Of a stretch of DNA of 64,000 bases, positions 7,446-18,886 are shown one piece after another. Every line of letters starts with the position of its first letter. Position 1 is the stretch's first letter. Both the position numbers and the translations under genes were made by a program. The notes below the pieces were generated by a model. That model saw only the letters and a list, made by a program, of their open reading frames with translations. It was not told the DNA's origin and made no database searches. This stretch comes from Mesotoga infera (lineage in GTDB: Bacteria > Thermotogota > Thermotogae > Petrotogales > Kosmotogaceae): the NCBI GenBank assembly GCA_011045915.1, contig DSBT01000410.1:1-64000 (forward strand), in the 5' to 3' direction.

Positions 7446-8145
7446 ATGGGAAACAAAGCGCATGTTTTGCTGTTTTCACTAATAGCTCCGTTTTATAACG
7501 TCGCTTTCAAGTCGCAGCTGAAGAATTATCGAAGCCTTTTGAAAGAACATCGGTCTCTAATTGGCGAGGATATCGAAAGCGTCCTCGATATCGGTTGCGG
7601 AACTGGTGCTCTTGCCAAGGCATTCGATGAACTGGGATACGGAGTAACGGCTGTGGATGCTTCGACTTCAATGGTAGCGATAGCGAGGCACAATCTTAAG
7701 GAAAGCGGAGTCAAAGTCGTTCAAGGCGACTTTTTTGAGAAGCTTCCCTTTGAAGACAATAGTTTTGATCTTCTCGTTGCATCTTATGTCGTACACGGTC
7801 ATAAGATTGAGGGCAGGGAAAAGTTCTATAAAGAGAGTCGTAGAATATGCAGGAAAGAGGTTCTGATTCACGATTTCTTTCCAAATAGAAATCCCTTGGT
7901 CTTTGTTGTCGAGTTCTTCGAGAGAAGTGATTACAGAAACTTCGTTCCGAAAGCCTTCGAAGAGCTCAAAGAGAATTTTCCCGTTGTAAAAGACGTTAGG
8001 CTTTCCTCTACGACGGGGTGGTATCTATGTCGGTGCGACTAGGCTCTTAGGTAGTTGGGTCTTCAAGACTTTGAATAAGCACGCGTTCAAGGAAGGGCTG
8101 GTGTTTCATTATTTGAACAATAGCGTTCTGGGGGTCTACAGGTGA
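7446..8145 (+). CDS. Class I SAM-dependent methyltransferase, frameshifted near its 3' end
   Basis: Motif I VLDIGCGTGALAKAF, motif II VTAVDAS and NSFDLLVASYVVHG show a Rossmann SAM methyltransferase; the substrate is unknown. The frame from ATG 7446 (AGGAGG four bases upstream) stops at 8042. Removing one G from GGGG at 8015-8018 lets it continue as GGIYVGATRLLGSWVFK and on to a TGA at 8143-8145. That TGA overlaps the GTG of the next gene as GTGA, the coupling seen throughout this window, so the longer frame is the ancestral one. The truncated product keeps the SAM site but loses about 35 C-terminal residues; a sequencing error is possible. Confidence 0.8.
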
Positions 8146-9074
8146 AGAAAGCTATACCTTACATATTTATTGCACCTGCAGGTGCAATTATCGGCTTCTT
8201 TTTTCTATATCCGTTGATATACTCATTTGCCATCAGCTTTTATGAGTGGGACCTTTCTCCGACAATGACTTTCGTGGGTTTGGGGAACTACGCACAGATT
8301 CTATCATCGAGCGAATTCTGGGACTCAATGTTATACACCGCTTACTACATTCTCGGCGTTCTCCCTTTTTCGCTCCTTATCGGTTTTCTTTTCGCCAATC
8401 TTCTGAACGATTCGACTATGAGGGGAATAGGGTTCTTCCGAATGATCTATTTCCTTCCGGTTGTTACATCGCCTATTGCAGCCGGTATGGGATTCAGTTT
8501 TCTCTTCAGCACTGAATTAGGGTATGTTAATCACATAATCGGGTCGTTTGGAGGGGAGTATGTGAACTGGTTGACCAACCCAGAGGGGATCGTTCAAATC
8601 CTGTTAAGCTGGACTGGAATTCAGCTTCCGAAGGTATTGCAGGGTCCTAGCGTGGCGCTGTTCGTGATAATCCTAATGGGGATCTGGCAAAATGTTGGAT
8701 ACGCAATGGTCGTTTATCTTGCAGGCCTTCAGAATATCCCACCGACTTACTATGAAGCTGCCGCGCTAAGTGGAGCAACCAAGTTCCAGATGTTGAGAAA
8801 GATCACTGTGCCTCTTCTTTCGCCGACTACTTTCTTTCTACTGATAATGTTCAGCATAAGTTCCTTTCAGGTCTTTGGCCCAATAATGGTCATGACTCCC
8901 GACGGAGGACCGCTCAACACAACCTCGGTCCTTGTCTTTCGGCTCTATCGAGAGGCCTTCTCTTATTACAGGTTTGGTTACGCAGCGGCAATGGCCTTTG
9001 TTTTATTCCTATTCGTGATCTCTCTTACTGCCTTTCAGGTGAAAACTATCGAGAGGACTGTACATTATGACTAA
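8142..9074 (+). CDS. Carbohydrate ABC transporter permease, MalF/UgpA type
   Basis: A 310-residue membrane protein with about six segments, the N-terminal YIFIAPAGAIIGFFFLYP typical of CUT1 permeases, and the EAA loop YYEAAALSGATKFQMLRKITVPLL, which contacts the ATPase. GTG start overlapping the end of the methyltransferase frame; overlaps the next permease by 8 bases. It forms the channel with the MalG-type partner. No ATPase gene lies in the cluster, so a shared MsmK-like ATPase elsewhere is likely. Confidence 0.9.
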   Translation: MKKAIPYIFIAPAGAIIGFFFLYPLIYSFAISFYEWDLSPTMTFVGLGNYAQILSSSEFWDSMLYTAYYILGVLPFSLLIGFLFANLLNDSTMRGIGFFRMIYFLPVVTSPIAAGMGFSFLFSTELGYVNHIIGSFGGEYVNWLTNPEGIVQILLSWTGIQLPKVLQGPSVALFVIILMGIWQNVGYAMVVYLAGLQNIPPTYYEAAALSGATKFQMLRKITVPLLSPTTFFLLIMFSISSFQVFGPIMVMTPDGGPLNTTSVLVFRLYREAFSYYRFGYAAAMAFVLFLFVISLTAFQVKTIERTVHYD

Positions 9075-9888
9075 AAGGATCGGGAGAGTTTTCAAGTACG
9101 CGATACTTATAACCGGTGCAGTTGTAATGATCTTTCCGTTCTTCTGGTCTTTCATGACATCTTTCAAGGATTTGAGAGAGATTCTCAGAGATCCTTTTTC
9201 TCTTATTCCCAGGGAGTTTACTCTGAAGAATTATGTCAGTGTATTCACGAAGGTTCCATTTGCCAGATACCTTTTGAATAGCACAATTGTAGCGCTGGCT
9301 ACCACTCTTTTGCAGCTTGTGACGGCTTCTCTGGCAGCCTTCGCATTTGCCAGGATGAGATTCAGGGGCGGAGAAGTGATATTCTATGTCTTTCTGGCGA
9401 CTATGATGATTCCCCAGCAAGTTGTAATGATTCCTCAGTATCTGGTAGTAATGAGGCTCAATATGGACAACTCCTATTTTGGGCTGATTTTGCCTCACGC
9501 GGCCACCGCAATTTCAATATTCTTTCTCAGGCAGTTCTTCTTGACTATCCCGAGAGATCTTGAGGACGCTGCCACGATCGATGGTTGCGGCCCGCTCAGG
9601 ACTCTCTTCAATGTATTTCTTCCTTTGACCAAGCCAGCCATCGCTACCATTGCCGTTTTCTCCTTTATGTGGTCGTGGAATAACTACTTCTGGCCTTTGC
9701 TTGTCATAAGTGAACCGGAAATGAGAACCGTCCAACTGGGTCTGGCGATGTTCAAATCAGAGGGTGGAATCCAGTGGGGAGAGTTTATGGCTGCGACAGT
9801 TGTAGCCACGCTACCGATCATGATTGCTTATTTCATTGCCCAGAAACAATTTGTCAAGGGGATAACCCTTACGGGATTAAAAGGATAA
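9067..9888 (+). CDS. Carbohydrate ABC transporter permease, MalG/UgpE type
   Basis: A 273-residue CUT1 permease with six predicted membrane segments. Family markers are [17 protein letters not shown], the EAA loop around [20 protein letters not shown] followed by PLTKPA, and the tail [15 protein letters not shown] found at the end of nearly all MalG-type proteins. It pairs with the preceding permease and receives substrate from the binding protein encoded 16 bases downstream. Confidence 0.92.
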
Positions 9889-11149: not shown

Positions 11150-11158
11150 GGTGATGAG

Positions 11159-12346
11159 ATGAAGCGAATACTTCTGTCGGTAATGTTCATTTTCTTTTCT
11201 TTGACGGTTTTTGCTAGCAAAATCGTTGAAATTGAAGTAACAGGAATTGAAAAGACACTTCCACAAGTGGTGATAAATATTTCCGGGCTCAAGATCGGTG
11301 AAGAGCTTGATATCGAGAGAGTTTACAGGGCCAAGAGAAATCTGGAAGAGTGCGGTCTCTTTACAGATGTATATCTTCAGCTTGGAGATGTCGGCGGTGA
11401 TTACAAGCTGGTGATTTCGGTTCAGGAAAGTTCTTCTTTCTACCCGTATTTTGGCGAGTATCTTACATTCGGAGCGGGAGATCGAAATCTTCTGGGTTCT
11501 GGGGTGAACGTTTATGGGGGAATCCGGTTTCTGAGGTTCACCGACAAAAGACTACTTGGCTTTCTTCCCCAACCCGAGTTTTTCTGGGGCGGATTGAGAT
11601 TTGGCGCGAGAACCCTCAGCGCCTTTGGAACAGGAATCAATCCCTTTATTGAGGTGACTCTCTTTAAAGAGGTTCCGTGGCAATCCGATACTATGCTTTC
11701 TTTGAATTCTGTAGAACTGGGTGGAACCTATCCCTTTGGAGAGTATGTTGCCGGAATTTCCTATACATACGAGAATGCGTCATTTGATGCCACGCCTTCA
11801 AACAACTACTCGGTTTCGATACTTACTGGAGCCTTTTCTTTTGGCGACGAAAATAACTACCAGGAGAAAAGAGGAAACTTATTCGGAAAAACGACTCTCT
11901 CCTACGGATTTGGAGACGGAATTAATTATCTTCAGCAGAAGGCGTCTGTTAATTACTGGTACAGAATCATAGGAAGAATCTATGTCGAGAGTGAGACAAA
12001 AGCAGGCGTAACTTATTTTGGAGAAGCTCCGGTGACCAGGCGTTTCTACCTGGGAGGAAGTGCCGATCTCAAGGGTTGGAACCCCTATGCATTTAATCCC
12101 AGATTCTATGCGCTGGAGATACTTCAGGCAGGAGTCCCTCTCACTGAGAGCTTCGCTGTTGCTCCTTCTGATGATATGAGCACCTTCATTCCCAAGCTCT
12201 ACTTGATGGCGGCTGCCGGTGACAACGCCACTCTCGGTCTGTCGATAGGAATAGGTTTCGAGTGGAGAACATCACTGGGAATTGGAGTTGAGCCTCAGGT
12301 GTTCTTCGGAGGAGACGGTTTCAAATTCTACTTCGAACTGAGGTAG
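11159..12346 (+). CDS. Omp85/BamA-family outer membrane protein with a single POTRA domain
   Basis: A 395-residue protein: signal peptide 1-19, one POTRA-like domain at about 21-90 (KIVEIEVTGI, then RAKRNLEECGLFTDVYL, ending VISVQE), then an alternating-strand beta barrel to the terminal Phe-Glu-Leu-Arg. RRFYLGGSADLKGW at 294-307 aligns with the Omp85 lid-loop motif, but the usual R-G-F/Y is K-G-W. Classical BamA has five POTRA domains and about 750-800 residues, so this is a minimal form. It follows the sugar-binding protein by 9 bases with GAGGTG, so it is probably co-transcribed with the ABC genes. It may insert or export a partner protein across the toga. Confidence 0.75.
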   Translation: MKRILLSVMFIFFSLTVFASKIVEIEVTGIEKTLPQVVINISGLKIGEELDIERVYRAKRNLEECGLFTDVYLQLGDVGGDYKLVISVQESSSFYPYFGEYLTFGAGDRNLLGSGVNVYGGIRFLRFTDKRLLGFLPQPEFFWGGLRFGARTLSAFGTGINPFIEVTLFKEVPWQSDTMLSLNSVELGGTYPFGEYVAGISYTYENASFDATPSNNYSVSILTGAFSFGDENNYQEKRGNLFGKTTLSYGFGDGINYLQQKASVNYWYRIIGRIYVESETKAGVTYFGEAPVTRRFYLGGSADLKGWNPYAFNPRFYALEILQAGVPLTESFAVAPSDDMSTFIPKLYLMAAAGDNATLGLSIGIGFEWRTSLGIGVEPQVFFGGDGFKFYFELR

Positions 12347-12454: not shown

Positions 12455-13117
12455 TTACTCTCTAACGGAAACGTTCTGCACATATCCGGAGAGCAAGTCG
12501 GCGAATTCTCTTAAGATTGGACCGGGATAAGGTGGCGATTCGCAGAACCCGGTTACCGGTCTATACTGCTGAACTGAAACCAACGACGCTCCGCTGCATA
12601 TTCTCGCGAGCTCTTCGAAATCCTTTTCAGGGACGTAAGGTGGAAACATTGTGATCCTTATTTCATGACTGGAGAAAATTTTCGCCAATTCAACACTTTT
12701 CTGAATTTGCTTCAGATTTACAGTAGAGAACTGTTCATAGTGCAAAGACTTGAGATCAACTGCGACATAGTCGATAACGTCCAGGAACTTCCTGAGAATA
12801 TCTGAACTCCAGCCATTAGTATCAAGTTTAACCAGTACAGCCGGAAATTGGGCTTTGAGTCTTTCAACAAAGGGGATCAGATCATCTGCCCTGAGTGTTG
12901 GCTCTCCCCCGGTAATAACAACCGCGTCTATGAGAGCTGCCCTTTTGTCAAGGTATTTGAAGACCTCCGATTCACCGACCTTCTCCTCTACCATTTTTTT
13001 CAGTTCAGGATTGTGGCAATAAGCACAGTCGAAATTACAGCTTGAGGTAAACAGTGTCAGGGCTACTTTGCCCGGATAGTCCACTAGACTGACCCTCTCC
13101 ATTCCTGCGAAATTCAT
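12455..13117 (-). CDS. nrdG: Anaerobic ribonucleoside-triphosphate reductase activating protein
   Basis: A 220-residue radical SAM activase. The cluster motif is CNFDCAYC (CxxxCxxC), preceded by VDYPGKVALTLFTSSC, and TGGEPTLRADDL is the SAM-binding GGE region. It generates the glycyl radical on NrdD. The ATG follows immediately after an out-of-frame TAG within the 3' end of the nrdD frame, and the two frames overlap by 83 bases. Family identity is clear; this longer NrdG type (about 220 residues) is common in Thermotogota and Firmicutes. Confidence 0.92.
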   Translation of the reverse strand: MNFAGMERVSLVDYPGKVALTLFTSSCNFDCAYCHNPELKKMVEEKVGESEVFKYLDKRAALIDAVVITGGEPTLRADDLIPFVERLKAQFPAVLVKLDTNGWSSDILRKFLDVIDYVAVDLKSLHYEQFSTVNLKQIQKSVELAKIFSSHEIRITMFPPYVPEKDFEELARICSGASLVSVQQYRPVTGFCESPPYPGPILREFADLLSGYVQNVSVRE

Positions 13118-17425: not shown

Positions 17426-18886
17426 ATGAGCTATATTCTCGCTATCGATCAGGGAACGAGCAGCAGCAAAGCCGTTCTTTTTGATGAAGAACTTTATCAA
17501 GTTGCCGTTGCTCAGGAGGAGTTTACGCAGATCTATCCCAAACCCGGGTGGGTAGAACACGATCCCAGAGATATCATCTTAAGCACAATGGGTGCAATTG
17601 AGAAAGTAGTCTCGGATGCCAGGATCTCATTCAGAGAAATTGCGGCAATCGGCATCACAAATCAAAGAGAAACTGTCGTTGCCTGGGATGCGGTGACTGA
17701 TCAGCCGCTTTACAATGCAATAGTGTGGCAGGATCGAAGAACTGCCGACAGATGCAGAGAGATCGAAGAATCTCATGGAGAACTGATAAGACGAAAGACC
17801 GGCCTCAAGCCGGATCCCTATTTCTCCGCGACGAAGATGGAATGGTTGCTGGAGAATGTACCGGTAGTTCGAGAGGCGGCTAGAAAGGGGAGATTGAGAT
17901 TCGGAACGATTGACTCCTGGCTAATCTGGAATCTGACGAGAGAGAACCTCCATGTGTGTGATTTCTCGAACGCGTCGAGAACGATGTTGTTCAACATCGA
18001 GAAGCTTGAATGGGATCGCGACCTCCTCAATCTCTTTGGAGTGGAGGAAGAGTTTCTGCCTGAAGTTGTGGAATCATGTAAGCTTCTCGGTCCTTCGATC
18101 TATGGCCCGAAAATTGGAGGAATAGCTGGAGATCAGCAGGCTTCACTGTTCGGTCAGACGGCCTTTCAGACCGGTGACGCAAAATGCACATATGGAACGG
18201 GTTCATTTATACTTATGAACATTGGAAACAAACCAAAGATTTCCGATCATGGATTGCTTACAACAATAGGCTGGAAGTCAACGGAAGAGACAGTCTACGC
18301 CGTGGAAGGTTCGATTTTTGCCACCGGAGCTTTGATAGGCTGGTTGAAAGATGGACTGGGAATCATAAACAGCCCTTCCGATACGGAGCCGCTTGCCAGA
18401 GAAGTCAATGACAATGGTGGAGTTTTTTTCTCCGGCGCCCTGACAGGTCTGGGAGCTCCTTACTGGAACTCCTCAGCGAGAGGCATGATGATCGGTTTGA
18501 CAAGGGGAACGAGTAAAGCACATATTGTGAGAGCCGTTCTCGAATACATTGCTTTCAGAACAAGAGAGATTCTTGAGCTGATGGAAAAGGAAACGGGAAT
18601 CAGGCTCAACAAACTGCTTGTTGACGGAGGAGTTACGCGAAACAACTTCCTGATGGAGATGCAGGCAAATATCCTGAATATCCCGGTTGACAGATCTCTT
18701 ATAAAGGAAACGACGGCGCTTGGTGCTGCAATGCTTGCGGGAATATGCACTGACCTCTGGGATCAGGAGAGCTTGAAGAACAAGAGGATAAGCGAAGTTG
18801 TCTTCGAACCGTCGGGAGATAGAATGGAGGAAGAGTTCAAGAGGTGGAAAGAGGCGTTGAAGAGATCTATGAACTGGGCAAACTAG
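17426..18886 (+). CDS. glpK: Glycerol kinase
   Basis: A 486-residue FGGY kinase. ILAIDQGTSSSKAVLFD is the phosphate-1 motif, NQRETVVAWD and WQDRRTADRC are glycerol-kinase signatures, and GIAGDQQASLFGQ and TYGTGSFIL follow in the usual order, with VDGGVTRNN near the C terminus. It phosphorylates glycerol to sn-glycerol 3-phosphate. AGGAGGGG precedes the ATG. Length is about the family norm (495). No glpF or glpD is adjacent. Its last 43 bases overlap tsaE. Confidence 0.93.
   Translation: MSYILAIDQGTSSSKAVLFDEELYQVAVAQEEFTQIYPKPGWVEHDPRDIILSTMGAIEKVVSDARISFREIAAIGITNQRETVVAWDAVTDQPLYNAIVWQDRRTADRCREIEESHGELIRRKTGLKPDPYFSATKMEWLLENVPVVREAARKGRLRFGTIDSWLIWNLTRENLHVCDFSNASRTMLFNIEKLEWDRDLLNLFGVEEEFLPEVVESCKLLGPSIYGPKIGGIAGDQQASLFGQTAFQTGDAKCTYGTGSFILMNIGNKPKISDHGLLTTIGWKSTEETVYAVEGSIFATGALIGWLKDGLGIINSPSDTEPLAREVNDNGGVFFSGALTGLGAPYWNSSARGMMIGLTRGTSKAHIVRAVLEYIAFRTREILELMEKETGIRLNKLLVDGGVTRNNFLMEMQANILNIPVDRSLIKETTALGAAMLAGICTDLWDQESLKNKRISEVVFEPSGDRMEEEFKRWKEALKRSMNWAN

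Follow-up and report, generated by a model that had tools for sequence, protein, structure and literature searches.

What would an Omp85 protein do at the end of an ABC importer operon? To our knowledge, the Omp85 proteins with a known job all act on outer-membrane proteins or, possibly, on lipids of that membrane. In the window analysed here (the whole 64,000-nucleotide stretch of Mesotoga infera contig DSBT01000410.1), a gene encoding a small BamA-like Omp85 protein of 395 aa (P0001; 11159..12346, + strand, ATG start) is the final gene of an operon unit whose other members lie on the same strand: a first, UgpA-like ABC permease (8142..9074), a second, UgpE-like permease (9067..9888), both named after their best NCBIfam match and both under the equivalog cut-off, and a soluble periplasmic, UgpB-like binding protein (P0002; 9905..11149). 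The 9-base distance on which the first-pass annotation had remarked was borne out: the P0002 stop and the Omp85 start are separated by ggtgatgag (11150..11158, + strand), which contains a ribosome-binding site. An independent promoter had been named there as a finding that would speak against its reading; no promoter-like site was found in this gap, and around the locus such sites were no commoner than in shuffled sequence. An ABC ATPase gene is absent from the unit, and the next gene 3' of the Omp85 gene (12455..13117) is on the opposite strand. We infer that these four genes are transcribed together.

Approximately the first 19 residues of P0001 (11159..11215, +) were judged by eye to be a signal peptide, with a helix at residues 2-15 in the predicted model. 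Residues 21-90 (11219..11428, +) correspond to a single predicted POTRA, matched by Pfam PF07244 with an E value of 0.0016, just under the curated cut-off. The same model matched 15 of the 15 small Omp85 family members scanned (best E 6.4e-9), as did the BamA model TIGR03303, which gave P0001 an E value of 5.5e-8 and 31.6 bits against an equivalog cut-off of 297. The Pfam Omp85 barrel model gave no match to P0001 (PF01103 matched 6 of the 15 members), and a PDB search with P0001 as a single sequence returned no match; the fold was settled by profile comparison and fold comparison. For these, an alignment of the 15 family members (A1) served as input to AlphaFold2 and to the profile searches. 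The resulting model (pLDDT 85.0, pTM 0.76) featured a strand-helix-helix-strand-strand arrangement (residues 21-90), forming one POTRA, followed by 16 strands from residue 94 to residue 394, and the barrel (11438..12340, +) was also supported by structural comparison. The structure prediction thus agreed with the one POTRA and 16-strand barrel envisaged in the first-pass annotation.

Comparison of the P0001 model with known structures using Foldseek gave BamA and TamA as the best PDB matches. Using VIA-align, where rows at most Z 1 apart count as tied, the model aligned with TamA 8us1 (Z 26.0, 354 aligned, rmsd 5.1), FhaC 4ql0 (Z 24.4, 335 aligned, rmsd 4.0), CdiB 6wil (Z 23.4, 343 aligned, rmsd 3.9), BamA 8pzu (Z 23.3, 367 aligned, rmsd 5.7), and Sam50 7e4h (Z 21.9, 347 aligned, rmsd 4.8), and the best 50 matches listed were all Omp85/TpsB proteins, Z ranging from 20 to 26 for TamA, FhaC, BamA, and Sam50. 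At the profile level, A1 matched BamA chains in the PDB (best E 1.1e-13), and hhalign placed it on a set of 17 Thermotogota BamA proteins, over their last POTRA and barrel (probability 99.3, E 4e-19). Given the model, the structural matches, and the profile match to BamA, P0001 is an Omp85 protein with one POTRA and a predicted 16-strand barrel.

P0001 shares with BamA the last POTRA, the barrel, and the VRG-type lid position; however, it has one POTRA where BamA usually has 4-5, is half the size, carries a lid Lys, and falls into a separate clade. A full BamA of 823 aa is encoded elsewhere in the same genome, which answers the question of paralogues raised by the first-pass annotation and confirms that 395 residues are far fewer than a BamA has. 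The single POTRA, the TIGR03303 score far under its cut-off, and this separate BamA show that P0001 is not BamA. A larger POTRA-containing frame accompanies the small Omp85 in all 16 genomes found to carry it (partial in G017, at a contig end). Mitochondrial Sam50 likewise combines one POTRA with a 16-strand barrel (Z 21.9), but Sam50 is a general assembly factor, whereas in the window's genome BamA does assembly separately. TamA heads the structural matches (Z 26.0), but it carries three POTRAs and works with TamB, whereas P0001 has one POTRA and the TamB model PF04357 matched 0 of 103 Thermotogota genomes, the control genomes, among them E. coli, Thermus, and Deinobacterium, being positive; a TAM role for P0001 is therefore unlikely.

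The closest published description is the BamA-like subfamily, whose members have 1-3 POTRAs and a barrel, as P0001 does, and always occur in addition to BamA; an association with ABC importers is not mentioned in the available sections of that survey (Heinz and Lithgow, 2014; PMC4104836). The same sections state that Thermotogae and other early-branching phyla often possess just one BamA, with no further members (PMC4104836). In the part available of a second survey, BamA was found in Thermotogae and nearly no other outer-membrane genes of the survey's set (PMC8871954), and a third text, whose accessible portion names neither Omp85 nor BamA, identifies OmpB as the principal porin of the T. maritima toga and reports a relative in Mesotoga prima (PMC3387000). 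As a separate observation, one contig of the window's genus (L085, 1131-4130, +) encodes an enzyme-Omp85 fusion of ~1000 aa consisting of an acyltransferase (AAT, PF03417), one POTRA, and an Omp85-like barrel; this genome is listed with 7% contamination, and the contig may be foreign.

The lid-loop motif of P0001, K-G-W (residues 305-307; 12071..12079, +), is the counterpart of the R-G-F/Y motif and, by profile comparison, aligns with the V-R-G-x lid motif position of BamA. Among the 15 small Omp85 proteins, nine have KGW, five have KGY, and one has lost the motif (L031). The BamA proteins read from the window's own genus have VRGS (4/4), and those from Mesoaciditogaceae have VRGW (six of six complete proteins, plus one partial). 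Judging from these alignments, the trailing Trp is ordinary for the phylum, and the unusual residue is the Lys only. The departure from R-G-F/Y flagged in the first-pass annotation is thus real as regards the replacement of Arg by Lys, but the Trp is not unusual. BamA of the sister genus (L075, L076) lacks the R-G pair altogether (LRVGPK/LRVSPK), so that the lid motif varies among the BamA proteins of the family.

A search of 103 Thermotogota genomes for the small Omp85 returned 17 hits, of which 16 were kept; the hit in G068 was left out of the count as it falls on a BamA POTRA, in a 752-aa frame. The 16 carriers belong to the families Kosmotogaceae and Mesoaciditogaceae and comprise 9 of 10 genomes of the window's genus, 2 of 2 of the sister genus, and 5 of 10 Mesoaciditogaceae. 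In all 16, the order permease-permease-binding protein-Omp85 is kept, with the Omp85 gene directly behind that of the binding protein (the first permease of G025 is cut by the contig start, and the Omp85 gene of G032 contains a run of N). The pairing with the ABC genes is therefore conserved, and the unrelated neighbours that had been named as a possible contrary result were not the case. The genes flanking the four-gene unit differ among the three groups (the window's genus, the sister genus, and Mesoaciditogaceae), and in each of the five Mesoaciditogaceae loci the binding-protein and Omp85 genes share a 4-base overlap. In two loci of that family, L034 (10484-15956) and L037 (11144-15984), the unit lies right behind, and runs in the same direction as, a Dpp/Opp-type ABC operon, and in L037 the two meet in a 4-base gene overlap.

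Orthologues of P0002 (55-97% identity) were present, among the 103 genomes, only in the 16 carriers and in G030, the remaining genome of the window's genus, whose contig breaks off within this gene; the next-best binding proteins have 32-35% identity. No small Omp85 was found without a P0002 orthologue in the 103 genomes. With P0002 orthologues confined in this way, the two genes are either both present or both absent (Fisher p ~1e-18 over the 103 genomes, a value inflated by their kinship). The Omp85 and binding-protein trees agree in every supported branch, with conflicts only on weak Mesoaciditogaceae branches, and sequence identity among the small Omp85 proteins falls to ~30% across the three groups. 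In a quick tree with long branches, the 15 small Omp85 proteins formed one group against 18 other Omp85 proteins (SH-aLRT 99). A pattern scan of 84,980 species, based on two short motifs and thus liable to miss distant relatives, gave 28 stretches with 8 true relatives, all Thermotogota: going by their titles, five belong to Kosmotogaceae or Mesoaciditogaceae or bear a Mesoaciditoga name, and the other three belong to Thermotogales or Thermotogae.

We then considered what the importer might carry. P0002 is an SBP_bac_1 protein (Pfam) whose best NCBIfam match is UgpB (NF008211; 137.5 bits, cut-off 411 bits) and whose best PDB match is also UgpB (E 1.8e-34). Together with the two permeases, it has the Ugp models (UgpB, UgpA, and UgpE) as best matches, all well under the equivalog cut-offs. 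The label "sugar" that the first-pass annotation gave this ABC operon is therefore doubtful, P0002 being closest to UgpB rather than to a plain sugar-binding protein. The structure prediction for P0002 reached a pLDDT of only 44. The ligand residues of UgpB were mapped by alignment, using what we take to be their E. coli numbering. According to the portion available of the UgpB report, the phosphate contacts come from two Tyr and two Ser, and the glycerol contacts from Gly, Arg, and Glu (PMC12718374). The Tyr/Ser positions map to Y61, S137, T264 (with S265 adjacent), and Y335 of P0002, and the Gly/Arg/Glu positions to G296, R381, and I85 (with E86 adjacent). Residues Y61, S137, S265, G296, Y335, R381, and E86 are invariant in 13 P0002 orthologues. 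The same set is kept in a second UgpB-like paralogue in the window's genus (L065, L066; the paralogue comparison rests on L065, L066, L068, and L069), whereas the binding proteins 7bvt and 4qrz, in an alignment read by eye, lack most residues of the UgpB ligand positions. No same residues are aligned in P0002 with the UgpB Trp clamp.

The likeness to the UgpB-UgpAE glycerol-3-phosphate importer thus extends to the best models for all three proteins and to most of the phosphate-site residues; however, the scores are under the equivalog cut-offs, the Glu and Trp-clamp positions differ, and Ugp has no Omp85 of its own. Because P0002 keeps most residues of the phosphate site, its substrate may bear a phosphate or phosphodiester group, perhaps as a glycerophospho compound, which we offer as a lead. 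The substrate class is unsure, given that the Glu and Trp-clamp positions are not aligned and that a Dpp/Opp-type ABC operon lies upstream in two Mesoaciditogaceae. Elsewhere in the window, an FGGY-family kinase (17426-18886, +), glycerol-kinase-like by eye, is encoded ~5 kb 3' of the Omp85 gene; it lies outside the four-gene unit, is kept nearby in those same-genus relatives whose stretch extends that far, and would be compatible with a glycerol-phosphate substrate.

The gene order in 16 of 16 carriers, the co-inheritance, the separate BamA, and the predicted fold with its single POTRA all point to a partnership, and we consider it very probable that P0001 is a BamA-like Omp85 protein acting as the dedicated outer-membrane partner of this one ABC importer. 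As a whole explanation, a dedicated partner whose most likely job is that of a substrate entry gate is plausible, and we favour it with reserve; the entry-gate mechanism as such is tentative. In this mechanism, the P0001 barrel would be located in the outer membrane, its lumen would admit the substrate, the POTRA would dock the binding protein or shut the pore from below, and the substrate would be passed to the binding protein and then to the permeases. It is doubtful that an Omp85 protein has turned from an assembly machine into an importer entry channel whose POTRA docks the binding protein. LamB, which feeds MalE and the maltose permease, is a functional analogue of the proposed gate role. 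Like P0001, it is an outer-membrane protein whose gene is tied to a binding-protein-dependent importer, but it is an unrelated 18-strand trimeric porin without a POTRA.

Some features of the P0001 family speak against a gate. The predicted lumen-facing residues are approximately neutral (7-12 K/R vs 8-15 D/E in the 15 members), and conservation along the barrel follows a BamA-like gradient, with conserved last strands, suggesting that insertase-type constraints may remain. A lid-type loop spanning residues 289-315 might also block the lumen. Three further ideas were considered and dropped: an anion-selective pore read from lumen charge, the predicted lumen being about neutral in the 15 members; a conservation pattern marking a lost lateral gate, the pattern being the same in kind as that of BamA; and a loss of the acidic residue that pairs with the lid Arg, as the sequences align too uncertainly there.

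The main rival to the entry gate is an importer-linked assembly factor, a BamA-like insertase that would fold one or a few outer-membrane proteins, such as an unlinked porin for the substrate. The relatedness to BamA over its last POTRA and barrel (hhalign probability 99.3; PDB profile matches) and the conservation gradient would suit such a function, and Heinz and Lithgow, in the sections available, anticipate an assembly role for BamA-like proteins (PMC4104836). We nevertheless regard it as rather unlikely, since the small Omp85 has no second outer-membrane protein gene as a conserved neighbour, its partners are permeases and a soluble binding protein, every carrier examined also has a full BamA, and the lid Arg is replaced by Lys in 14 of 15 members, with the motif lost in one.

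The first-pass annotation had suggested that P0001 might translocate or anchor a specific partner, such as the binding protein or a toga component, rather than serve general assembly. A specific partner instead of general assembly agrees with the full BamA encoded elsewhere and with the one ABC importer found in 16 of 16 carriers; the particular partners fared less well. In the two-partner-like version, the barrel would bring the binding protein to the surface, or the POTRA would hold it at the outer membrane, in keeping with a binding-protein gene directly upstream in all 16 carriers, its 4-base overlap in 5 of 5 Mesoaciditogaceae, and the structural likeness to FhaC and CdiB. These TpsB proteins share with P0001 a 16-strand barrel and a gene linked to that of a secreted partner, but they have two POTRAs and a TpsA exoprotein, whereas P0001 has one POTRA and an SBP_bac_1 binding protein. 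P0002 is an ordinary member of that family, always beside permeases, and should therefore act in the periplasm; no sign of translocation or anchoring was seen in it, as it has a plain signal peptide, no lipobox (by eye), and no secretion domain. It is accordingly improbable that P0001 secretes or anchors P0002, although it may anchor P0002 without secreting it. No toga gene was found among the neighbourhoods of the carriers.

A role in envelope lipid turnover, in which the unit would salvage what phospholipid breakdown releases or transport lipid in an Mla/TAM-like manner, draws on the UgpB-like ligand residues and on TamA being among the best structural matches; with no lipid enzyme conserved in the unit, no TamB in 103 genomes, and UgpB-type importers taking up small soluble compounds, we consider it quite improbable. 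That the small Omp85 merely sits in the operon is very improbable: linkage is not proof of joint function and only two families carry the gene, but the arrangement is conserved over three groups with different flanks though Omp85 identity falls to ~30%, and the Omp85 and binding-protein genes occur together or not at all.

In the literature searched, mostly open-access, no description of an Omp85 in an ABC importer operon was found. The small Omp85 corrects the picture of Thermotogota as having BamA only. Inherited strictly with a small-molecule importer, it offers a compact, genetically clean case for asking whether nutrient uptake or importer-specific assembly can be the task of an Omp85 barrel. 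If P0001 is indeed an entry channel, the four genes would provide a complete two-membrane import line with a non-porin outer-membrane step.
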